34,648 bases of DNA from Bryobacterales bacterium (GTDB lineage: Bacteria; Acidobacteriota; Terriglobia; Bryobacterales; UBA6623). Positions 4,100 to 33,924 of this stretch are shown in pieces (the first letter of the stretch is position 1; each line of letters begins with the position of its first letter). Where the stretch lies: NCBI GenBank assembly GCA_022825595.1, contig JAJDWM010000308.1, forward strand, positions 1-34,648, read 5' to 3'. A model generated the notes under the pieces. The model was not told the DNA's origin and did not search any database. It worked only from the letters and a program-made list of their open reading frames with translations. Position numbers and translations under genes: made by a program.

Positions 4100-7000
4100 T
4101 CAGAAGTACAGCTTCAAGCCCATCTGGATCTGCCGCGCCCGATTCGCAGTCCGGAGCACTCGTCCGAAGTTTCGGTGGCTCAGGTTGGCTACTGGAGCGG
4201 CGTACTGGGGCGAGTTGAACGCATTGTAGAACTCAACTCGGTACTCGGCCTCGAACCTCTCGCCAGCCCTGAAGATCTTGAAGAACGAGAAGTCGACATT
4301 GTTGATCCCGTCGGCTCTCAGGGTGTTGCGACCGGCATTGCCGAACGTGCCGGTCTGCGGCACGGCGAAGGCGCTCGTGTTGATCCATGCCGCAGGCGTT
4401 GGATTGGAGAGGTTGGGATCACCGACGAAGTCCGGGCGGTAACGGCCGTTCGGCAGGCCTGTCCCGGCGATGTCTCCATTGACATTCGGCGTGTATGGTT
4501 GGCCCGACGTGAACAGCGCCAGCCCGTTGAACTTCCAGCCACCAAGGACGGCTTGTGCTGCCGGGTTCGCGAACTCGAACGGCAATTCGAACGTCCAGTT
4601 CATGTTCAGATTGTGCGTCAGGTCGATTCCCAACAGGCTGCGGTCCATGTTGAAGTTGTAGGGGTTCTGCTGCGAGCAGTTCTCGACGAACCAACCCGTG
4701 CAGCCGATATCGATGGCCTTGGCCCACGTATAGTTGACCATGAACGCCAGCCCACGCGAGAACCTCCGGTTGTATTGGGTCTGCAGGGAGTGGTAGCTGC
4801 TCCGTCCCCAAGAAGTGAGGTAGTTGTTGGCACGGAACAGCGGAAACGGCGCACGTTGGCGAGCTTCTGAACGCCTGCCCGGAGTGAGCGCGACGTTGTA
4901 ATAGGTGCCGAGCGGCAGCCGCCGCGAGCCGGACCCGACATAGTTGACCGAGAGGACCGTCGCTTCGTCGAGTTGCCGCTGGATGCCAAAGTTCCACTGC
5001 ATGGAGTAGGCGTTGTCCATCCGCGGGTCCGAATACCAGGCCCCTTGGTTGTACGGGGTGGCGGTCGGAAGGATCCCGGTGGGTGCTGGATTCTTGGCCG
5101 AGACGTTGGGAATGGTGTCCGCAGGATTCGTGCCGTTCTGAAGCTTCCGACCGACATCTGGCCACGTGTGCCCAAGGTTCTGGGTGTTTTGCGTCACTCC
5201 CGCGAAGTTCTCGAAGAAGACGCCGGATGAGAATCGCAGGGCCGTCCGGTCGTTCAGGCGATAGGCCAAGCCGAGCCGTGGCTGCCAGCTCAGCGGCCAC
5301 GGATCTTGCACGTATCCGTTCGCGGCAACCTGCACCCTGTCCGGGAGGGCCCCGCTCGGGTCAGGCAGGCACGGCGCGACTAGCTTGACTTCGCAGGTGG
5401 GCGGGGCGGCGGTGATCCAGAAGATGCCATCGTTGTAGTCGATGTTCCCGAACTCGACCGTGTTCTCTTCCGGGTTGCCGAACTGGGGCAGGACTGTGCT
5501 GTCCAGCCGCAGCCCGAAGTTGATTGTGAGCTTGGAAGTGGCCTTCCAAGAGTCCTGCGCGAAGTAGGACCACAGCGCACCTCCGCGGGCGCGCTTGTGG
5601 AAGTCGCGCCGGGACCAGGCGTTCGGCACGTTGAGCAGCAGGGACGCGATGGGATGGCCGGTGCTCCCCGGGCTGTCCGGACTGGCAGTGCCGACTGTCG
5701 AGAAGTTGTTGGAGTGGTCGTTCGTCCTGCCGAAGTGCCCGATGATGTTGTACTCCGCACCGAACTTCAAGGTATGGGTCCCGATGATCTTTGTGTAGGT
5801 GCCCTTGTACTGCCAAGTGTCGCTCGTGCGCGTGTAGCCGATGCGCTCCCCGCCGCCAAAGTACTGGGCCACGCCGACGTTGGGAACGTAGGAATCGCCC
5901 CCACGGAACCCGCCCGCAAAGTCCGGGTTCCAGCCCACCGTCGAAATGAACCCGTCCGGGAGGCTGACAAAGTCGTTGCCGGTGTCGCGGATTACGTCTG
6001 TACGTGCGAAGGAGACCTGCAGGATGCTCGATGGGTCGAAGGTGTGGACCCAATTCGCCGCGACGTTCAGGTTGTCGATGTTCACGAAGCTAACGAGACC
6101 CTGCCTGCCTCCCGTACCCGTCCGGTCACTGTTCTGGGCACTGACGCGAACAAAGACGGTGTCGGCATCGCTGAAGCGGTGATCCACACGTCCCGAGTAT
6201 TCCCACTGGTCTAGCGACGTCCCTGTCGTATCCCTCTGGTTCAGGTTGCCTAGGTCAGTGCCGAGATCGACCGGCATCGGGACAGTCTGGTCCAAGTAGT
6301 GCAGGAATCCCTGGTCCAGCCGGCTCTGAGGTATGACGTTGCCGGGGAAGGGGTCCCGGACCGCATTCCCGTCAGGCCCCATGCGTGTCGAATATGGGTC
6401 GAAGATCTGACGCGCCGAGTTGCTCAGGTCTCCCTGCCGATTTGCCGCCGTCGGCACCTGGTAGTTGCGGTTCGCCGGCGTACGGTTAGTGAATCCTTGG
6501 AACGCTCCGAAGTAAAAGGTCTTGTTGCTGACCAGTGGTCCCCCGACTGTGCCGCCGAACATGTTCTGGGCCAAGGCTGCCTTGTCCCTGAGGAACGTGT
6601 CTCGAGCGTCTAGGTTGTCATTGCGCAGGAACCACCACAGCCGGCCGGTGATGTCGTTTGTGCCGCCTTTGCTGACGACGTTGATCACCCCACCTGTGAC
6701 CCCTCCGAATTCGGCTAGGTCGTTGTGCGACTGGACCTTGAACTCCTGAATCGCGTCGATGATCGGCGGAACGGCGTAGGTGCTAGTCATCGTTCCTTGG
6801 TTGTTCACGCCGTCGGTAAGAAACAGGTTGCTCCGATTGTTCTGGCCGTTGATGGACGGGAAGCTGAAGGTTCCGACCGACGTGCTCCCGAATCCCCCCC
6901 GGCTTTGGGCAACGTTGACAGGCGACGCCCCAGGCGAGAGCATGAGCAGCTGGGTGAAGTTGCGCCCGTTCAGCGGCAAGTCGACCACTTGCTGCTCTGT

Positions 7001-7450
7001 CATCGCCGTTCCCAGTTCGGAGGAGGAGGCCTGCACTTGCGCGCCAATCGCTTCGACAGTCACGGACTCGGTCACCGCCCCGACCTCGAGCACGATGTCG
7101 AAAGTGGCAGTCTGGTTGACCGTTAGCACGAACGGCTCGATGGCCGCCGTGCGGAAGCCGTCGGCGCTGGCTTCGATCGTGTAGTATCCCGGCGGGATAT
7201 TGACGTAGACGTAGCGTCCGACCGCATTGGTCTCCGACCGATGCTCGATCCCGGTCTCGACGCTGGTGAGGACTACTTGTGTTCCTGGGACAATGGCACC
7301 CTGCGGGTCCGTCACGGTCCCGTTCACGGCCGAGCTGGATGCTTGGCCGTACGCTGGCGTGTTGATTGTGGCGACTAGCAGCGCCGCCAACGCCGCCGCG
7401 ACGCACCCTCGCAAGCCAGCTGAGAAATGAGCAAGCTGATCTATCTTCAT
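4100..7450 (-). CDS. TonB-dependent receptor 1 (Oar-type)
   Basis: Outer-membrane TonB-dependent transporter or adhesin of the Oar-like group, 1,116 residues. A signal peptide covers about residues 1-36 (ending PAYGQ). A carboxypeptidase-regulatory-like beta-sandwich follows at about 40-125 (AVNGTVTDPQGAIVPGTQVV). The plug carries VVDLPLNGRNFTQLL and FLTDGVNNQG, and a long barrel ends in the aromatic C-terminus LKLYF typical of outer-membrane proteins. The ATG at 7450 has a strong ribosome binding site (AGAGGGG). A TPR gene follows 71 bp downstream on the same strand, and a CRTAC1-like gene diverges across a 131-bp intergenic region. It is a close paralogue of the receptor at 10434-13790 over its whole length. 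The substrate cannot be told; such receptors take up large or scarce substrates such as glycans, peptides or metal complexes. Confidence 0.95.
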   Translation of the reverse strand: MKIDQLAHFSAGLRGCVAAALAALLVATINTPAYGQASSSAVNGTVTDPQGAIVPGTQVVLTSVETGIEHRSETNAVGRYVYVNIPPGYYTIEASADGFRTAAIEPFVLTVNQTATFDIVLEVGAVTESVTVEAIGAQVQASSSELGTAMTEQQVVDLPLNGRNFTQLLMLSPGASPVNVAQSRGGFGSTSVGTFSFPSINGQNNRSNLFLTDGVNNQGTMTSTYAVPPIIDAIQEFKVQSHNDLAEFGGVTGGVINVVSKGGTNDITGRLWWFLRNDNLDARDTFLRDKAALAQNMFGGTVGGPLVSNKTFYFGAFQGFTNRTPANRNYQVPTAANRQGDLSNSARQIFDPYSTRMGPDGNAVRDPFPGNVIPQSRLDQGFLHYLDQTVPMPVDLGTDLGNLNQRDTTGTSLDQWEYSGRVDHRFSDADTVFVRVSAQNSDRTGTGGRQGLVSFVNIDNLNVAANWVHTFDPSSILQVSFARTDVIRDTGNDFVSLPDGFISTVGWNPDFAGGFRGGDSYVPNVGVAQYFGGGERIGYTRTSDTWQYKGTYTKIIGTHTLKFGAEYNIIGHFGRTNDHSNNFSTVGTASPDSPGSTGHPIASLLLNVPNAWSRRDFHKRARGGALWSYFAQDSWKATSKLTINFGLRLDSTVLPQFGNPEENTVEFGNIDYNDGIFWITAAPPTCEVKLVAPCLPDPSGALPDRVQVAANGYVQDPWPLSWQPRLGLAYRLNDRTALRFSSGVFFENFAGVTQNTQNLGHTWPDVGRKLQNGTNPADTIPNVSAKNPAPTGILPTATPYNQGAWYSDPRMDNAYSMQWNFGIQRQLDEATVLSVNYVGSGSRRLPLGTYYNVALTPGRRSEARQRAPFPLFRANNYLTSWGRSSYHSLQTQYNRRFSRGLAFMVNYTWAKAIDIGCTGWFVENCSQQNPYNFNMDRSLLGIDLTHNLNMNWTFELPFEFANPAAQAVLGGWKFNGLALFTSGQPYTPNVNGDIAGTGLPNGRYRPDFVGDPNLSNPTPAAWINTSAFAVPQTGTFGNAGRNTLRADGINNVDFSFFKIFRAGERFEAEYRVEFYNAFNSPQYAAPVANLSHRNFGRVLRTANRARQIQMGLKLYF

Positions 7451-10433: not shown

Positions 10434-13400
10434 CTAGAAGATGAACTTCAATCCCAGTTGGAACTGTCGGGCACGCCGCTGCGTCGCCGTCACGACTCCG
10501 AAGTTGCTTCTACTGAGATTCTGTACCGGGATTGCGAAGTCCGCGTGGTTGAACGCGTTGAATGCCTCGGCCCGGAATTGCAGCTTCATGCCCTCCCGTC
10601 CAGGCAATGGAAAGTCGCGGAATAGGGACAGGTCGAAGTTCGTCACCCCATCAGAGCGCAAGGCGTGTCGGCCCGAGTTGCCAAACGTGAACGGTGCGGG
10701 TGCGCTGAATGCGTCTGTATTGAACCAGCGCGACGGAGTGGGATTGCTCAGGTGAGGCTCCCCGACCTGGTCGGCCCGCATGTAGCCGTTCCGATTGCGC
10801 GTGTTGGCAATGTCGCCACTGACGTTGATGTGGTACGGCCGCCCAGAATAGAGATTGGCGATGCCGTTAATCTGCCAGTTCCCCACGATGTAGTCGGCAA
10901 CCTTACTGCCGGTCGACTTCATTCCGGGACCTATCGGAATCCGGTAGACCCAGTTAAAGTTGAAGATGTGGGTCAGGTCGTGACCCGCCACGCCCTTGTC
11001 ACGGACGTGATCATACGGTGTCTGGGTGGAGCACCCCTCGACGTTGTACCAGCCGTCGCAGGCGAGGTTGATCGTCTTGGACCACGTGTAGTTCACCATG
11101 TAGGTGAAGGCGCGCGATCGCTTCGTCAACTGGAACTGGAAGGCGTTGTAGTTGGCCCTTCCAACGCTGCGCTGCCAGAATGTCGGCACGATGAACGGGT
11201 ACGGGCTACGGTCAGCCGGATCCCCGGGCCCCGGCGTCAGCGCCGTGTTGTAGAAGTGGTCGAGCGGCGCCCGGCGATTCGCTGATCCGACGTAATTCGT
11301 GGAGATCAGCGTGTCGTCCGTGAGCTGGTGCTGGAGGCCAAAGTTCCACTGCATCGAGTACTGGTTCTTAACGCTCGGGTCCGCGTACCATGCCACACGG
11401 TCGAACGGTGTCGGGCCCGGCAGCAGGCCGGCCGGGAAGGGGTTCTTTGCCGAGACCCCGGGGATCGGCCTTCCGCTCGTCGGTGTGTTCAGGTTGCCGG
11501 ACTGCTGCTGGCCGACGTCGGGCCAGGTGTGCCCTTGGGCCTGCATCATCTGGTTCATCCCGGCCCAGCTGTCATAGAAGATGCCACCTGACATTCGCAC
11601 CGCGGTCCGTTGACTCACCCGATAGGCGATTCCGACTCGCGGTTGCCAGTTGTCTGTCCAATCCTCGATCAGCCGCTGCGTGGGTGAAACGCGCACCTCA
11701 TCGGGCAAGCTGCCGTCCGGGGTCGGTATGCAAGGTGCCGCCTTGAGGGCGGCGCACGAGTCGGGCTGTGCCTGGATCACGTATAGGCCCCCATGGACGC
11801 GCTCGAAGTCCGGAGTCCCCGCAAAAATGCCCTTGTCGTCGTACGAGCCGACCCTCGGACTCCACGTCCGGTCGTAGCGCAAGCCGATGTTCATGGTCAG
11901 CTTGGGGGTGACCTTCCAGTTGTCCTGCAGGTAGAACCCTCCGATCGCGCCCCGGTGCAGGCGTTTGAAGAAATCCCGCCGTCCCGCGTTGTTTGGCACA
12001 TTGAGCAGCCATGAAGCAAGCGGACTACCACCGGTGTTGGTCTGAGGATCCGCCGTATTGGCCGGTACGAACTGGACGTTGTGGTCGTTCGTGATGCCAA
12101 AGTGCCGATTCGTGCTGTACTCGGCACCAAACTTCAGTTGGTGGTTACCCATGATCTTGGTGAAGTTCCCTTTGTACGAGTAGATGTCGGACGTGCGGTT
12201 GTTTGCGACTCGCTCTCCCCCGCTGAAGAACTGGCCAACGTTGACGCTCGGTGTCAGAGCGAGGTCGCTCCTGAAGCTACAGCAGAACAGCGGCTCAAAG
12301 CCGAAGCTCGTGGGATCCACGTCACTCGCGAACTCGCTGCCCGTGTCGCGGTTGATGAGCGTCCGACCGAACTGGAACTGAAGGATGCTGGTCGGGCTGA
12401 ACGTGTGGACCCAGCTGGCCCCAATATTCAATGTCCGGACATTGACGAGGCTACCCAGCCCCTGCCGCCCTGCGGATCCCGTCTGGCCGAGGTCCGACCA
12501 GCTCATGCGTCCCCATACCATGTCCCGCGCACTGAAATTGTGATCCCCGCGGACGTTGAACTCGTCTTGGTCCAGGGATGAGTTCGTCGTGTCGAGTTGG
12601 TTGCGGTCGGCAACGCCCGTAGCGATGGGCTTGGGGATCGTTGTCTGGGCGTAATTGACGAATCCGGCATCGAGCCGGGATTGCGGGATCATGTTGTTTG
12701 CGAACGGGTCACGCACGAAAGTACCCGTCGCGGCGTCCTCGCGGGTGGACTGCGGGTCGTAGATTTGGGCCGGCCAGTCGCTGTGGTCTCCGGCCAAGTT
12801 CGCGTCCGTCGGAACGCGGTAGAGGCGGTTTGCAGGTGTCCGTCTCTTGAAGCCCTGCCAGGCGAAGAAATAGAACGTCTTGTTCCGGACGGCCGGGCCT
12901 CCGACGGTGGCTCCATACATGTTCTGCGAGAGAGGCACCACGTTCCTGCGGAAAAAGTTCCTGGCGTCGAAGTTGTCATTGCGCATGAATTCCCACAGCG
13001 TGCCGTGCACTTGGTTGGTGCCCGACTTGGTGACAACGTTGACGATGCCACCCGTTCCCTGTCCGAACTCCGCTTGGTCGTTATGGGTCTGAACCTTGAA
13101 TTCTTGGATCGCGTCGATGATCGGTGGCGTGGCGTAGGTGCTGACCATCGAGCCGTGGTTGATCACCCCGTCGGTGAGGAAGAAGTTGCTCCGATTGCTC
13201 TGGCCGTTCATCGCCGGAAACGCGAACTCGCCGATGGCCGAACTGCCAAAGCCTCCCCGGTTCTGAGAAGTGCTAATTGGTGACGCGCCCGGGGTGAGGG
13301 TCAGCAGCTGGGTAAAGTTCCGACCGTTGAGGGGCAGGTCAACCACTTGGTTCTCGGCCATGACAGACCCCAGTTCGGCAGTCGAGCTCTGCACCTCGGC

Positions 13401-13790
13401 ACCGACAGCCTCCACAGTCACAGTCTCCGCCACGGCGCCAATCTCAAGGGCGAAGTCAAGGGTCGCGGTTTGGTTCACCGCGAGCGTGAACGGCTGGAGC
13501 GAGCTGGTGCGGAATCCGTCCTTGCTCGCCGACAAAATGTAAGTCCCAGGCGTGATGCTGACGAACGTGTATACGCCGACCGAGTTGCTCGCGCTGCGAC
13601 GCTCAACCCCGGTCTCGACGTTCTGTAGGACTAGGTCGGACTCGGGCACGACCGCGCCGGTTGCGTCCCGTACAGTGCCGTTGACAGTGGCAGTAGATAC
13701 TTGGGCCCACAAGTGGCTGGGCGCTACCAGCAAGCACGCCATTCCGAGGGCCAGAGCGATTCCGATTCCCAATGTAAAATGCGATTTCAT
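10434..13790 (-). CDS. TonB-dependent receptor 2 (Oar-type)
   Basis: 1,118-residue outer-membrane receptor of the same subfamily as receptor 1. A signal peptide covers about 1-30 (ending HLWAQ), followed by a carboxypeptidase-regulatory-like domain at about 34-120 (TVNGTVRDATGAVVPESDLV). The plug has VVDLPLNGRNFTQLL, TPGASP and FFLTDGVINHG, and the barrel ends in LKFIF. The ATG at 13790 follows a purine-rich ribosome binding site (GGGGAAGGAAG). A consensus-like promoter lies at 13895-13923, giving a leader of about 100 bases, and a 24-bp perfect palindrome lies upstream of that. The gene is followed by a hairpin and diverges from the TPR gene at 14782. Its similarity to receptor 1 points to duplication and then separate substrate choice. 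Confidence 0.95.
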   Translation of the reverse strand: MKSHFTLGIGIALALGMACLLVAPSHLWAQVSTATVNGTVRDATGAVVPESDLVLQNVETGVERRSASNSVGVYTFVSITPGTYILSASKDGFRTSSLQPFTLAVNQTATLDFALEIGAVAETVTVEAVGAEVQSSTAELGSVMAENQVVDLPLNGRNFTQLLTLTPGASPISTSQNRGGFGSSAIGEFAFPAMNGQSNRSNFFLTDGVINHGSMVSTYATPPIIDAIQEFKVQTHNDQAEFGQGTGGIVNVVTKSGTNQVHGTLWEFMRNDNFDARNFFRRNVVPLSQNMYGATVGGPAVRNKTFYFFAWQGFKRRTPANRLYRVPTDANLAGDHSDWPAQIYDPQSTREDAATGTFVRDPFANNMIPQSRLDAGFVNYAQTTIPKPIATGVADRNQLDTTNSSLDQDEFNVRGDHNFSARDMVWGRMSWSDLGQTGSAGRQGLGSLVNVRTLNIGASWVHTFSPTSILQFQFGRTLINRDTGSEFASDVDPTSFGFEPLFCCSFRSDLALTPSVNVGQFFSGGERVANNRTSDIYSYKGNFTKIMGNHQLKFGAEYSTNRHFGITNDHNVQFVPANTADPQTNTGGSPLASWLLNVPNNAGRRDFFKRLHRGAIGGFYLQDNWKVTPKLTMNIGLRYDRTWSPRVGSYDDKGIFAGTPDFERVHGGLYVIQAQPDSCAALKAAPCIPTPDGSLPDEVRVSPTQRLIEDWTDNWQPRVGIAYRVSQRTAVRMSGGIFYDSWAGMNQMMQAQGHTWPDVGQQQSGNLNTPTSGRPIPGVSAKNPFPAGLLPGPTPFDRVAWYADPSVKNQYSMQWNFGLQHQLTDDTLISTNYVGSANRRAPLDHFYNTALTPGPGDPADRSPYPFIVPTFWQRSVGRANYNAFQFQLTKRSRAFTYMVNYTWSKTINLACDGWYNVEGCSTQTPYDHVRDKGVAGHDLTHIFNFNWVYRIPIGPGMKSTGSKVADYIVGNWQINGIANLYSGRPYHINVSGDIANTRNRNGYMRADQVGEPHLSNPTPSRWFNTDAFSAPAPFTFGNSGRHALRSDGVTNFDLSLFRDFPLPGREGMKLQFRAEAFNAFNHADFAIPVQNLSRSNFGVVTATQRRARQFQLGLKFIF

Positions 13791-22967: not shown

Positions 22968-23804
22968 GGCGCAACCGTCTACGAGGATTCCCAGTCCTCT
23001 CCGCCTGACTGGCCGGGCCTCGGGCTTGGTGTTCGAGCCCGGCCTTGGGGATGGCTGCCCCTTTGCTCCGTACCGTCGCCGACGGTCTCCTTGGAATCGC
23101 TGACCAGTGAGCGGTACACCTGATCGGATCGTCGTAGGAAGCCGATGGACCGCAAGGCAAGAGGCCTTGGCCCAATCGTGTTCGCGGACTGTGCCCGTGC
23201 GACCCGCTGCCTGACGGTGAATAAGGCCCCGAAGATATCCGGCCCAGGACGGTCGCGCGCGGCTTGTCGGATAGACGATCTATTGCTCATGTAGGAGTAC
23301 AGGATCGTCCCGTGCGTCACCAGTGGCGGTCAGGCACTGGCTATTGGGTATTCAGTCACGAATGGGTAGCGACGATGCCCGGGGTGTTGTCTCAGCGTTC
23401 GGGTGGGACGGATCCGGATCCTCCGTGGCCGGCCTGCGGACCTGTGCAATTCCTGCCGGGGTTGGCGGCGTGATGCGTCCCACTCCCCGTCTCGTGCGCG
23501 TAGATTGGGGTCGCGCGAGCTGGATCAGGGATGCGCTTCCAAGCAGTGCTGGTCTGGTGATGGCCGGGGTTGAGAGTAGGCGTGCCCCCTGCTGGACCGC
23601 TTGTGGTCGAGAGCGATGACAGGACCACGAGCGCGGCTTGCCCCTGCGCCGCTCTCACTCGCTGCGTAACTCTGTCCGCAACCCGGTAGGAAGTTGCTGC
23701 TGGCCCGGCATCGGCCTGTGATACACATCCAGCGGCGATAATCGCGCTTGCGTGCACAAGGCGCGAGCGTGTCGCTGGGGCGGGGTGCGGCCCAGCCGCC
23801 CGGG
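22968..23804. other. Gene-free stretch after the ankyrin gene
   Basis: Apart from the hairpin at 23011-23044, no gene is supported. Open frames on both strands (for example 22979-23320 and 23392-23757 on minus) lack family motifs and ribosome binding sites. No RNA gene was recognised. From about 23870 the composition becomes visibly richer in A and T, marking the edge of the island that follows. Confidence 0.5.
23011..23044 (+). terminator. Hairpin downstream of the cytochrome operon
   Basis: GGCCGGGCCTCG pairs with CGAGCCCGGCC around an 11-base loop, leaving one bulged base, 43 bp after the ankyrin gene's stop. It is very GC-rich but followed by TTGGGG instead of a T-run, so it is a likely 3'-end structure and not a textbook intrinsic terminator. 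Confidence 0.45.
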
Positions 23805-24518
23805 ATGGAGAGGCGGGCCCCTGAACGTGATGAGGGGATCGGTCCCAATGCGCGGATCATATCTCAGAGGATCCTGCGATATTCCCATATATGTTGGTCG
23901 ATTCGCGTCAGTCTGCTTGCCAGTCTCCGGAATATACGCTATATCAATAGTGGAATTCCGAAAGATAGTGAAGAAGATCTGCTTCCCACGATCTGGAAGC
24001 CGTGGATGGGCGATGAACTAGTTGCATCGCGCGTACCCGTCACGACACCCACACGGTACGTCTCGTTCCGAGCGGCCTTGAATCTCCGGTTGCCTGGGGA
24101 GCACACAGGAGATTTGCACAGGACCGTCTTCTTCTACACTGCGGCCGACAACCCCTATACCCTGAAGCTTGCCGGGCCGGGCGGATTGTGTGATTCGACT
24201 CCAAGCCTCGGGAGCAAGGGCGTGCGGGACATGGCGGACCTCCTAGTAGTCATCGATGTCATTCCCGAAGGTGCTGGTCCAGTCTGGGTAGCGAACCACT
24301 ACCAAGCAATCACAGACCTTGTTCTCGGGGATGTGACCGATCTTCGATGTACATTCATCCCGAGGGTCGCACCGGTCTATACCATCAACCAGTGGTTGGA
24401 CACAGAGGAGCAGATCGAGCATTTGGTTCAGGAGTACCTAGTGCCACTGACCAGCCAGCTTCCACCAAAGGAAAGAGAAGTTCACGAAAAATGGCTTCCG
24501 ACCGTAGTGTGGCCCTGA
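23805..24518 (+). CDS. Unrecognised protein next to an AbiEii-like remnant
   Basis: 237 residues if started at ATG 23805, where no ribosome binding site is visible; the frame is open from 23748 and the true start may lie further in. The first 50-60 residues look unnatural. From about GIPKDSEEDLLPTIWKPWMG onward it reads as a folded, soluble protein (RYVSFRAALNLRLPGEHTGD, KLAGPGGLCDSTPSLGSKGV, GPVWVANHYQAITDLVLGDV, INQWLDTEEQIEHLVQEYLV), with no signal peptide or membrane segment. I cannot name the family. The DNA is visibly AT-richer than its neighbours, a sign of transfer. A fragment resembling an AbiEii-type nucleotidyltransferase follows at once in the same frame, so it may be the partner gene of such a system. 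That role is inference only. Confidence 0.6.
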   Translation: MERRAPERDEGIGPNARIISQRILRYSHICWSIRVSLLASLRNIRYINSGIPKDSEEDLLPTIWKPWMGDELVASRVPVTTPTRYVSFRAALNLRLPGEHTGDLHRTVFFYTAADNPYTLKLAGPGGLCDSTPSLGSKGVRDMADLLVVIDVIPEGAGPVWVANHYQAITDLVLGDVTDLRCTFIPRVAPVYTINQWLDTEEQIEHLVQEYLVPLTSQLPPKEREVHEKWLPTVVWP

Positions 24519-24590
24519 ATCGTTCAATATGTTCTCAAGGGGGGCACTGCCTTAGCAATTGCCTATAACTTGATGACCAAGACACTCTAG
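24519..24590 (+). pseudogene. Fragment resembling an AbiEii/AbiGii nucleotidyltransferase
   Basis: After the TGA at 24516-24518 the same frame continues for 23 codons to a TAG, reading IVQYVLKGGTALAIAYNLMT. The stretch LKGGTALAIAYNL is very like the nucleotide-binding KGGTAL motif of AbiEii/AbiGii-type nucleotidyltransferase toxins. The N-terminal part that should precede the motif and the rest of the catalytic domain are absent, so this is at most a deletion remnant. Confidence 0.4.
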
Positions 24591-24688: not shown

Positions 24689-25627
24689 TCAACGGCTGGC
24701 CGCCAACATTGAACGCGCCAAGCCAATATGCACGCCGAGCGTCAGTGCGTCGTAGTGGTTAAAGAAGGTTTCGAAGCGAAAGCGCTGCCGCACTCCGTTA
24801 TCGTCTGAAAGCACTAGTTCCGACTCCCCGATGCGTCCGCCCCAGTAATCTGGCTTGCAATAGGCCGCGATCTGCTTGAACAGTTCGTCCTCCTGTACGC
24901 CCTTGAAGTGCCGTGCGAAGGCCGGCGACCGAACGAAATGTTCCCGGCGCGTTGCTAGCTCAGGGTTGTCGCACACCGGCTCTACGCTCGGATACCGAGT
25001 GATCAAGCCTACGATTGGACGTCCCCGAGACGCGGATTCCACCAGCCGATAGAAGGTGGTGGTGATCGAGTTGCCGAACAATCTGTGCAACTCCAGAACG
25101 GTGTCGATGGACGGCTCTCGCGAGCGCGCTTCGTCAAGAAAACGGTCGCCCAAGAAGAGTAATCTGGCGGCTGCGAAATTGGCCTCGTTCTCGATCCGCC
25201 GACGACACTCCGGCGAAAGAGTGTGCCGGTTGTCGCCGAAGGCAGCATTGCCGTGCCATGGGATCAGCGTATGCCCGATCTCATGTGCCTCGCTCCAGCG
25301 ATGCTTCTTGTCGGGCAGTTTTGGATCGAGGAAGATGCTTCGCCACTTCGACAGGTATAAGGCGCTGAGATCGAACCTGCGAATCGCCTCGATGAGCAAG
25401 AGCTGACGCCTGTAGACGTGCATTGTGGAGACCATGATCTTGGAAACGGCCTCCAGCGAGAACTCCTTGTCATCGGTCGGATAGAAGCGGAGCTCAAGCC
25501 CGAGTAGCCGCCGCACGGTGGCTAGGTTCAATGGCGGCTCGGGGTTGCCGAGCTTTCGCAGAACAAGATCCACTCGCTCGGCGATGTCCGTGCCAGGCTT
25601 CCGAGCGATGAAGTGGTTGCGGATCAC
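24689..25627 (-). CDS. ImmA/IrrE-type (M78) metallopeptidase
   Basis: 312 residues from GTG at 25627. Residues 115-119 are HEIGH, the zinc HExxH motif, inside WSEAHEIGHTLIPWH, and the probable third ligand is the Glu of ENEANFAAARLLF near residue 148, the arrangement of ImmA/IrrE peptidases. In that family the enzyme typically cleaves a DNA-binding repressor of a mobile element or stress regulon, or acts in a toxin-antitoxin pair. The frame stays open upstream to 25849, but that stretch includes an inverted copy of the gene's own 3' part and is unlikely to be translated. No helix-turn-helix domain is visible in the protein and no repressor gene is adjacent. It runs opposite to the genes on both sides. 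A 45-bp coding segment is repeated in inverted orientation 15 bp before the start. Confidence 0.83.
   Translation of the reverse strand: MIRNHFIARKPGTDIAERVDLVLRKLGNPEPPLNLATVRRLLGLELRFYPTDDKEFSLEAVSKIMVSTMHVYRRQLLLIEAIRRFDLSALYLSKWRSIFLDPKLPDKKHRWSEAHEIGHTLIPWHGNAAFGDNRHTLSPECRRRIENEANFAAARLLFLGDRFLDEARSREPSIDTVLELHRLFGNSITTTFYRLVESASRGRPIVGLITRYPSVEPVCDNPELATRREHFVRSPAFARHFKGVQEDELFKQIAAYCKPDYWGGRIGESELVLSDDNGVRQRFRFETFFNHYDALTLGVHIGLARSMLAASR
24870..24914 (-). repeat. Inverted repeat, left arm (inside M78 gene)
   Basis: 45 bp that match 25643-25687 exactly in inverted orientation. Here it encodes RHFKGVQEDELFKQ of the peptidase. Flanks on both sides differ between the arms, apart from scattered matches. 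Confidence 0.95.
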
Positions 25628-25642
25628 AGCCCATCTTACGAT

Positions 25643-25687
25643 ACGGCACTTCAAGGGCGTACAGGAGGACGAACTGTTCAAGCAGAT
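25643..25687 (+). repeat. Inverted repeat, right arm (before M78 start)
   Basis: Exact inverted copy of 24870-24914, ending 15 bp upstream of the peptidase GTG. Read on the plus strand it encodes the same RHFKGVQEDELFKQI, followed by AKSGGT and a stop, so inversion between the arms would fuse it in frame to the peptidase. Confidence 0.95.
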
Positions 25688-26175: not shown

Positions 26176-26682
26176 GTGCTGGCCTTTCGCATTGCCGTCT
26201 TGGACCAGATGCAGCATCGCGGATTTGGCCGCATTGGGGAAGTTGAGCAGGCAATTCCGGAAGGGAAGACGATGGCGGAGGTCTTGGCAGAGCATAAGGC
26301 TTGGCACGACACCAATGGCAGGAAGGGCCAAAGGGCCGTGTTGAGGCACTTCGACTTCACGGGTCGACACCTCTGCGGCCTCAACCTCGACCGGGTAATC
26401 CTCATCCGACCAAACTTCACTGGAACGGATCTTCGAGACTCATCTCTGCCGGGGGCAGTCCTGCACAACCCAATCTTCGACGGCACAGATCTGACGGGCG
26501 TGGACGCGACGGGAATCGAAATCCGCAGAATCACCATGCGAAAGGCTCGAATGGGGCCCAGCACTCTGGGGATCGCGGAGACCTTGGCGGAGGAACACCG
26601 ACGTGTCCATCCGACGCAGTCCTTCAGCTACACGCCCCAACGCATCCCTGTGCGCGACCGTGAGTATGGTCCATCCCGATAG
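26176..26682 (+). CDS. Pentapeptide-repeat-like protein (3' part of split gene)
   Basis: 168 residues if started at GTG 26176, but homology of frame suggests the true gene began at 25870. The middle contains short pentapeptide-type runs (DFTGRHLCGLNLDRVILIRP, NFTGTDLRDSSLPGAVLHNP, IFDGTDLTGVDATGIEI), which fold as a right-handed beta-helix. In other proteins such helices mimic DNA or act as binding scaffolds. The tail (RRVHPTQSFSYTPQRIPVRD) is not recognised. With the TGA upstream, the gene is either a pseudogene or expressed as a shorter form from an internal start. Confidence 0.6.
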   Translation: MLAFRIAVLDQMQHRGFGRIGEVEQAIPEGKTMAEVLAEHKAWHDTNGRKGQRAVLRHFDFTGRHLCGLNLDRVILIRPNFTGTDLRDSSLPGAVLHNPIFDGTDLTGVDATGIEIRRITMRKARMGPSTLGIAETLAEEHRRVHPTQSFSYTPQRIPVRDREYGPSR

Positions 26683-30555: not shown

Positions 30556-33500
30556 CTAGAAGACCCACTTCAGGCCGAATTGAATCCGGCGCGGCTCGCC
30601 CGCCGTGTTGATCGTTCCTGCGGCCGGCCTACCGATGGAGGTGTTCGGCCGTCCGAAGACGGGTGTATTGGTGAAGTTGAAGGACTCGAACCGGAACTGG
30701 ATGTAGTCACCCTCCCAAGGCAGGGCAAACCTGCGCGCTAGGGAGAAGTCGACCGCCGTCGTTCCGGGTCCCCATATCAGGTTGCGGCCGGCGTTGTCGA
30801 TAACCCCTGGCTTGCCGGGCACGATCGCGTCGGTGTTGAACCAGCGGTCGATCGTTCGCTGGCCCACTGGCAGGTTAATGTCCCCGGCCACATCGCCGCG
30901 GTTTGCGCCACCCACGTTGGTGGTGTTTTGGTTGAACGAGTGGCTATCCGGCGTCCCTCCGAGAAAGTTCAGGATTCCGCCGATCTGCCAGCCCCCGAAG
31001 ATCCATGAGCCGGGGCCTGACTCCAGCCGGCCTTTTCCTGGCCCGAACGGAAGCTCGTAGACAATGCTTGTGACGTATGCCAAGCGCCGGTCTAGGGAAG
31101 CGTTTCCCCGTTCGATGGACTGGTCGTAGGTGAACCGCTGTTGGGAGGTCGTGCCCGTGGTCAGGTTCTCGTTGATGACGTCGATGTTGTGGGCCCAAGT
31201 GAAGGAGCTCAGAAACGTCAGCCCGCCCGTGAATCGCTTCTCGCCCTTGATCGTCAGCGAGTTGTAGTTCTGGTTCAGGTAGTTTCCTCCGCGCATGTTC
31301 ACATTGTTGAAGTAGTCGCGGTTGCGGCGCCTCTGGTGTTGGATCACCGGATCCGGGGTCATCGGACGGTTGATGTTCATCGCACTCGGAATCTGGTTCG
31401 TCGCTGTTCCGTTGTAGCCAATCGTCAGCAGGGTGTTGCCGGGCAGCTCGCGCTGGAGGTCGAAGAACCACTGTCCCGCGTAGAATTGCGGCCAAGTTCC
31501 GTCCACAACCGTGTTTACGCTCAAGCTGCGGCGCGGAAGGCCGGTGCGGCTGGCCACGGGAAACCCTTCTTGGACGATGAAGTTGCTGACATCGCGCCCC
31601 TGCGGGAAAGTCAGCTCGTTCGAGAACGGCGGGCCCGTAAAGAAGCGTGCCGCCTGACCCTGCACGATGTCGTGCTCGCCGAAGAAAATGCCAGCGCCCG
31701 CTCGCACGACAGTCCTGTCGTTGATCCGATAGGCGATCCCCAAGCGAGGTGCGAAATTGTTCAGGTCCGGGTCGCCTCCGGTGTCGGATCCGTCGGTCGG
31801 TCGCCTGAAGAACTGCAGGAAGTCGTCCCCGGTGAATCCCCCCCGGTTCGCCGGAAGGCGCTCTTCCGCGCTAATGGTGCGACCATTGATCTCCGAGATG
31901 AAGTTGCCGATCGTGGTGTTGAGGGTGTGGCTGTCCGGATCGGGGAAGTGAGGCAGTCCGAAGATCTCGTAGCGCAGGCCGAGATTCAGGGTGAGGCGAG
32001 AGGTCACCTTGTAGTCGTCCTGCACGAAGAAACCGTAGTAGTTGGCCACGTACTCCTCTCCGTTCGGCCATCCCCAAACACCGTTGGATGCCCAGCCCAG
32101 GACCATGTCCGCGACCGAGTTCCCGGTCGCTCCGCGGCTTGCGGGACTCTGAGGCGTCTCCGAAGTGAAGACGCCGTTGAAATCGAACCGGCCGCGGCGG
32201 AACCGTGAGGGCGACCGTGGGATCTGCGTCCGACGGTACTCAATCCCGAACTTGATCGTGTGGCTGCCCTTGACGATCGTGAAGTTGTCCGAGATCTGGA
32301 GGTTGTCCATCTTGTTGACGTTCGGCCAAAACGCCCGCGGACCGAGGTCCCGGAAACCAGAAGGCCGGGACAGCGCGTAGCCGTGGTTCAGGCCGTCGTC
32401 GAGCGTGTCGCCCGGGGCACCCTTGACGCCGAACTGTTCGTTCATCGGCTCGGTGATCGGGATGTCGAAACGGGTCGGGAAGAAGGTGTAGCCGAAGCGC
32501 AACTCGTTGAACATAGTGGGCCCAAACGTGGTGTTGAGCGCCGAGGCCCAGTTGTCACCCGGAAGATCGATCGTCTGTCCGACGCCACCCACCGCCGGCA
32601 GCGGCAGCGGTCCGTTCTGGAGCACGAACTCGTCGCGGATCGAGTACCGGGCGAACCAACGGTTCGCGTCGTTGATGTTGTAATCGATGCGGAGGTCGTA
32701 CTGATTGTGGTCTATCGTGTCCGACGGCGAGTAGAAGTAGTTGTTGCGCAGGTTCTCCCTGCCGGGAATGTTCGGCGCCGGATAGTTGGCCAGCAGCGCC
32801 ATCGACACAGGATCGAAGCGTGTCGCGGGGATCATGAAGTTCGGGAACGCTGAGCGCGTGCCCTCGTTCAGCGTCCCGGGATCGTAGATCCGGCGGTCCG
32901 GATCCGGCTGCATCGAGAAGTCGCCGCCTAGCGCCGACTGGCTCGGAACGGAGCTGGTGAAACTCTGGCCCGCTCGATTCTTGGTGCCTTGGAAGCTGAA
33001 GAATCCGAAGAGCTTGTTGCGGATGAAGGGTCCTCCGAATGTGCCTCCGTACTGGTTGCGCCGCAGCGTGGGCTTGGCCGCACCGGTCCGATTGGCCATG
33101 AAATTCGTGCCATCTAGCTTGTCGTTACGGATGAACTCGAACAGCGAGCCGTGGAACTCGTTCGTCCCCGTCTTGGTGCTAACCAGCACCTTGGCGCCCA
33201 TCCGATATCCGTACTCGGCAGACGTGTTGTTCGTCACCACCTTGAACTCGCCGACGGCATCGACCGATGGCTTCGTCGCCTGCGCCTGGAAGCCAAGAGC
33301 TCCGCCGGAGTTGCGCGACGAGTTGTCGGCACCGTCTAGCAGCACGTTGGTCTGTGCCGCGTGCATCCCGACGGCCAAGATGCCGCCTTCGCCACCCATC
33401 ACGCCGTCGTGCCTAGTGCCTTTTCCCATCTCGCGGGAGGGCAGCACGCCGACGGTGAACTTTGCCAGCTCCAGGTAATTGCGCCCATTGAGCGGCATCT

Positions 33501-33924
33501 CGAGGATCCGCTTGGAGTCGATGACTTGGCCGACCTCGGTCTTCTCCGACTGGATCAAGATTGCCGCTGCGCTGACCTCGACCGTCTCCGTGACTGAGCC
33601 GACCGACATTGCACAGTCGATCCGCATGGTCTGCTGAACTTCCAGACGGACCTCTGAGAACTCCTTGCTGGCGAAGCCGTCCGATGAGCACACCACGGAA
33701 TATAGGCCTTGGTTGAGGCCGGGCACCGAGAAGAAGCCCACCTCGTTGGTGGTCACGTCACTCTGCGTGCCAGTTTCGAGGTTCGCAACGGCGACTTGGG
33801 CCCCTGGAATCACCGCACCTGTGTCGTCGGTGACCGTTCCTTGAATCGTTCCGCTGGTCTGCGCGAATCCCAAGCCCAGCGAGAGGATTCCCGCCCCGAG
33901 TAGGCGGAGAGTCAGATTTGTCAA
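30556..33924 (-). CDS. TonB-dependent receptor 3 (Oar-type, divergent)
   Basis: 1,122 residues from a TTG at 33924, supported by a strong ribosome binding site (AGGGGG, about 8 bases upstream) and a signal peptide running straight from it (LLGAGILSLGLGFAQ). A carboxypeptidase-regulatory-like domain lies at about 25-105 (GTIQGTVTDDTGAVIPGAQV), then the plug (EMPLNGRNYLELAKFTVGVL, VLLDGADNSSRNSGG) and a barrel ending LKWVF. The plug insert (MGKGTRHDGVMGGEGGILAV) and barrel differ from receptors 1 and 2, so it belongs to another branch and probably takes another substrate. A consensus-like promoter stands 65-93 bp before the start and an intrinsic terminator follows, so it can be transcribed alone. 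A TPR gene precedes it on the same strand. Confidence 0.95.
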   Translation of the reverse strand: MTNLTLRLLGAGILSLGLGFAQTSGTIQGTVTDDTGAVIPGAQVAVANLETGTQSDVTTNEVGFFSVPGLNQGLYSVVCSSDGFASKEFSEVRLEVQQTMRIDCAMSVGSVTETVEVSAAAILIQSEKTEVGQVIDSKRILEMPLNGRNYLELAKFTVGVLPSREMGKGTRHDGVMGGEGGILAVGMHAAQTNVLLDGADNSSRNSGGALGFQAQATKPSVDAVGEFKVVTNNTSAEYGYRMGAKVLVSTKTGTNEFHGSLFEFIRNDKLDGTNFMANRTGAAKPTLRRNQYGGTFGGPFIRNKLFGFFSFQGTKNRAGQSFTSSVPSQSALGGDFSMQPDPDRRIYDPGTLNEGTRSAFPNFMIPATRFDPVSMALLANYPAPNIPGRENLRNNYFYSPSDTIDHNQYDLRIDYNINDANRWFARYSIRDEFVLQNGPLPLPAVGGVGQTIDLPGDNWASALNTTFGPTMFNELRFGYTFFPTRFDIPITEPMNEQFGVKGAPGDTLDDGLNHGYALSRPSGFRDLGPRAFWPNVNKMDNLQISDNFTIVKGSHTIKFGIEYRRTQIPRSPSRFRRGRFDFNGVFTSETPQSPASRGATGNSVADMVLGWASNGVWGWPNGEEYVANYYGFFVQDDYKVTSRLTLNLGLRYEIFGLPHFPDPDSHTLNTTIGNFISEINGRTISAEERLPANRGGFTGDDFLQFFRRPTDGSDTGGDPDLNNFAPRLGIAYRINDRTVVRAGAGIFFGEHDIVQGQAARFFTGPPFSNELTFPQGRDVSNFIVQEGFPVASRTGLPRRSLSVNTVVDGTWPQFYAGQWFFDLQRELPGNTLLTIGYNGTATNQIPSAMNINRPMTPDPVIQHQRRRNRDYFNNVNMRGGNYLNQNYNSLTIKGEKRFTGGLTFLSSFTWAHNIDVINENLTTGTTSQQRFTYDQSIERGNASLDRRLAYVTSIVYELPFGPGKGRLESGPGSWIFGGWQIGGILNFLGGTPDSHSFNQNTTNVGGANRGDVAGDINLPVGQRTIDRWFNTDAIVPGKPGVIDNAGRNLIWGPGTTAVDFSLARRFALPWEGDYIQFRFESFNFTNTPVFGRPNTSIGRPAAGTINTAGEPRRIQFGLKWVF

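Follow-up and report, generated by a model that had tools for sequence, protein, structure and literature searches.

A perfect inverted repeat at an M78 peptidase gene of a Bryobacterales bacterium, probably the scar of an IS21-interrupted gene copy

Two exact copies of a 45-bp sequence in inverted orientation, one within a gene for an ImmA/IrrE-like metallopeptidase and the other just before its start codon, raise the question of whether the gene can be flipped or whether the repeat is the trace of a past rearrangement. An earlier note, made from the sequence alone, had allowed for both, a phase-variable switch or a relic. The locus lies in a stretch of DNA of 34,648 nucleotides (the window), which is contig C128 of a bin comprising 796 contigs and 88% complete (genome G000). 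Among public genomes, bins of uncultured Bryobacterales are the closest to it.

The peptidase gene and the inverted repeat

The gene is located on the minus strand (24689-25627) and codes for a protein of 312 amino acids, which matches Pfam family PF06114 (E 5e-7, 30 bits versus the cut-off of 22) and carries the HEIGH motif, a zinc-binding motif of the HEXXH type; in both respects it is a member of the M78 (ImmA/IrrE-like) metallopeptidases. It differs from other ImmA/IrrE proteins in that its subfamily is limited to one Bryobacterales genus among the relatives searched, being found in some members of this genus only (61 relatives), and in that no adjoining gene for an HTH partner was identified at this locus. 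The open frame extends upstream to 25849, and the conserved start is a GTG codon (25625-25627) common to four species. The orthologues are 89-92% identical, start at the same position, and are full length and in the present orientation in all four species. The dN/dS ratio of 0.20-0.22 in all pairs, including that of G000 and its sister G007, indicates that the full-length gene in its present orientation is still under purifying selection after the rearrangement discussed below. Elsewhere, G001 and G002 contain C-terminal scraps of the same gene family, and G008 has a broken copy with stop codons.

Arm 1 of the repeat (24870-24914, minus strand) is ordinary coding sequence of the M78 gene, ACGGCACTTCAAG...AAGCAGAT in the gene sense, and it is nearly unchanged in G005, G001, and G007, regardless of whether arm 2 is present. 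Arm 2 (25643-25687, plus strand) is its perfect inverted copy, and three more bases extend the repeat to 48 nt at 98%. Given the size and G+C content of the window, ca. 8e-18 such pairs are expected by chance, the longest chance inverted pair being expected to reach about 15 bp. Arm 2 is separated from the GTG start by a gap of 15 bp, the native leader of the gene (25628-25642, minus strand), which is common to G005 and G001. An inversion between the arms would keep the reading frame, as the plus-strand frame across arm 2 runs ...RHFKGVQEDELFKQIAKSGGT-stop, and the last 59 of the 312 residues would be replaced by AKSGGT and a stop codon, giving the alternative end FKQI-AKSGGT-stop. The earlier note had described the repeat, its distance from the start codon, and the arithmetic of the in-frame swap correctly.

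Within the leader region (25628-25642), a ribosome-binding-like stretch, GAGAAGGG in G005 and G001, is changed in G000 and G007 (GTAAGATGGG, GTAGGATTAG), and given this change the rearranged M78 gene may be translated less well.

The IS21 remnant and the sister genomes

The sequence abutting arm 2 on its outer side was overlooked in the earlier note. Arm 2 ends at 25687, which is the last base before the left end of an IS21-family element (25688 to ca. 25947, plus strand), beginning with TGCAAAATCCGGAGG... and followed by the start of istA (MKRILEILRL..DQGLSQ). The left boundary, TGCAAAAYCCGG, is identical at four places, namely in the window, at the orthologous locus of G007 (contig C63), and at two further places in G007 (contigs C278 and C31), and the flanks upstream of it are unrelated except for those of the two orthologous copies. 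In C278 the left end continues into an istA-type frame matching the NF033546 family (transpos_IS21) with an E value of 3e-18, while the M78 locus of G007 itself matches it with an E value of 2e-4. The 53-amino-acid istA remnant of the window has no family match of its own, and is counted as IS21 because of its 85% DNA identity to the C278 copy. The left end comprises repeated CTGAATCCGGA units similar to the L1/L2 repeats known from IS21 ends (PMC10122671), and a similar end, TGCAGATTCCGAAGG, precedes istA of an IS21 element in G004. The shared boundary, the NF033546 matches, and the repeated units together identify the region as a decayed IS21-family left end, a truncated remnant rather than an intact IS. 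Like the istA/istB elements of this family, it is inserted in gene sequence and has repeated units in its left end, with an istA-type frame behind them, but it differs from an intact IS21 in that no more than ca. 260 bp of this end are left: a genus-wide pattern scan revealed no inverted partner (right end) close to the locus, and istB was absent from the ORFs scanned. The AKSGGT tail of the flipped form arises because this IS21 end is read in frame.

A general tendency of this IS to sit beside inverted copies of nearby sequence was also considered and rejected, as no such copy is adjacent to the left end at C278 or C31. C278 also contains a 63-nt inverted repeat with 82.5% likeness (L041:834-896 and 4454-4516), which precedes the IS21 left end there by about 190 bp.

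A search for the repeat in related genomes, as proposed in the earlier note, showed that G007 has arm 2 at the orthologous locus, with an identical junction to the IS end. There the two arms are mismatched at 7 of 45 positions, and arm 2 carries an in-frame stop codon; arm 2 of G000 differs from that of G007 at 6 of 45 positions, which is about the neutral divergence. Arm 2 is absent from G005 and G001, though the M78 gene and its 3' flank match. These two genomes share the leader up to ca. 25649, within a few bases of the inner edge of arm 2, and then continue into a different upstream sequence of their own. The rearrangement junction, at the upstream edge of the leader, reads TGCCGT in the window versus TGACGT in G005 and G001, a short microhomology, and both arms of G000 carry CAGAT where G005 and G001 have CACAT. 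G006 and G008 contain more distant M78 homologues without an inverted arm.

Origin of the repeat

The most probable reading, to which we assign a probability of about 0.72, is that the inverted repeat is the scar of an inverted partial copy of the M78 gene that was interrupted by IS21. In the ancestor of G000 and G007, an IS21 element would have inserted directly behind ...FKQI of another copy, or a copied piece, of the gene, lying head-to-head with the intact one. A deletion at a short microhomology (ACGnCAC) would have taken away the remainder of this copy, stopping about 15 bp short of the start of the intact gene, and the IS would then have decayed, leaving 45 bp of the copy between the leader of the intact gene and the IS21 left end. 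In G000, arm 2 would have lost its differences from arm 1 at a later time, gene conversion between the two being the most likely cause. The IS21 end with its exact boundary at arm 2, the distribution of arm 2 among the sisters, and its decay in G007 are observed; the order of events and the second copy are what we infer, since a scan for further parts of the head-to-head duplicate beyond the 45 bp, or for the right end of the IS, yielded nothing in the vicinity of the window. The components themselves (an IS remnant, a gene scrap, and conversion between repeats) are of kinds already known.

Arm 2 might also have arisen without any second copy, if replication, next to an IS21 end that was already there, switched strand within the gene and so produced a 45-bp inverted copy. 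The short length of the arm and the microhomology at its inner edge would fit such a template switch, as would CAGAT in both arms, which implies that the source resembled the local gene. However, the outer edge of the arm is the exact terminal base of the IS. An IS that inserts into a gene copy yields such an edge directly, while a template switch would hit it only by coincidence; the switch of template is therefore unlikely, and a less likely origin than an IS21-interrupted second copy. An artefact of assembly, which a bin as fragmented and incomplete as this one might bring to mind, has next to no probability, as G007, a public bin with a name of its own (isolate RHO3_bin_37), has the same junction of arm 2 and IS21 at the orthologous locus, and 45 bp is shorter than typical reads.

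The perfect identity of the arms requires an additional step in the history of the scar, a recent conversion or an inversion. As G000 and G007 show a neutral divergence of ca. 0.16 per site, the value for the gene being ca. 0.064, about five differences (4.9) would be expected between the arms of G000 since the split from G007, while there are none in 45 positions (P ca. 0.007, from a rough rate and a single genome). Moreover, two positions of arm 2 in G007 carry bases also found in arm 1 of G001, as if an older state had been lost in G000. The identity and these G001-like bases suggest that arm 2 of G000 was recently rewritten from arm 1, by gene conversion or a rare inversion; conversion is the simplest route, and a crossing-over, which may also have occurred, would have flipped the gene. 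On such grounds, unprogrammed recombination may be added to the scar: pairing of a general or replication-slippage type would convert arm 2 to arm 1 and rarely invert the gene, with no selection for a switch. The contrast between identical arms in G000 and seven mismatches in G007, together with the six differences between the two copies of arm 2, favours this addition, but it comes from one genome, 45 bp is short for homologous recombination, and the identity could be due to chance at the 1% level, so that the proposal is a tentative one, with odds slightly below even. Should the recent homogenisation be confirmed, the 45-bp arms would offer a modest case from nature of conversion acting on inverted repeats of very short length.

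A programmed, phase-variable inversion would involve a site-specific recombinase acting in trans and flipping the gene body, so that the 312-residue protein would alternate with one of 259 residues ending in AKSGGT. The perfect arms with their homogenised appearance in G000, the in-frame alternative end, and ten serine-recombinase matches elsewhere in the genome accord with it. Nevertheless, patterns of both flipped junctions were found in none of the 11 congeneric genomes, a result upon which this was rejected as the main reading, and no recombinase family was matched among the main ORFs of the window that were scanned, in line with the earlier note. Genomes that lack arm 2 contain arm 1 all the same, as plain coding sequence, and the arms do not behave as conserved recombination sites, arm 2 having decayed in G007 and being missing from G005 and G001; the alternative C-terminus, in turn, is the IS21 end in frame. 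Programmed inversion is thus very unlikely. The locus shares with invertons two short perfect inverted repeats and an inversion that keeps the frame and recodes the C-terminus, but differs from them in having no dedicated recombinase nearby, no second orientation among the 11 genomes, arms not conserved in the sisters, and a repeat explained by the IS scar (a search of a limited literature collection with the term 'intragenic invertons' found no paper). Equally improbable is that a repeat made by IS21 was turned into an intragenic inversion switch, its arms being kept identical by recurrent flipping between full-length M78 and a truncated form with an IS-encoded C-terminus. Of the two possibilities raised in the earlier note, the relic gains support from the IS21 boundary, the absence of arm 2 from two sisters, and its decay in G007, while the switch is not supported.

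The same note had proposed that the mRNA leader, which would include arm 2, could pair with the 3' coding region. Complementarity is perfect in G000, and such pairing might control expression, but in G007 seven positions are disturbed with no compensation in arm 1, and in G005 and G001 the gene is under similar selection with no arm 2 at all, which makes a functional RNA pairing highly improbable. The best explanation is that the intact gene works in its present orientation, with no programmed switch. The locus shows that a mobile element and a broken gene copy can leave debris with the look of a designed inverted repeat, complete with an alternative end in frame, which calls for caution in scans that identify invertible genes from inverted repeats alone.

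The neighbourhood of the locus

Most congeneric genomes contain diverged relatives, and frequently several of them, of the neighbouring gene (23770-24526), which codes for 256 amino acids. In G007 this gene flanks the M78 gene and the IS remnant on the opposite side, the block having been moved. Pfam has no match for the neighbour (23748-24518) or for the gene located upstream in G005. An integron-cassette origin of the swapped gene order was rejected, as inspection of the borders by eye showed nothing like an attC core. A gene for a pentapeptide-repeat protein (26176-26682) lies downstream of the IS remnant, while in G007 the region adjoins the 256-amino-acid neighbour instead. It is also of note that the 35-kb window encodes three long outer-membrane beta-barrel proteins, which are paralogues and carry carboxypeptidase-regulatory-like domains (4100-7450, 10434-13790, and 30556-33924), the first two genes sharing a 171-nt stretch that is 71% alike.
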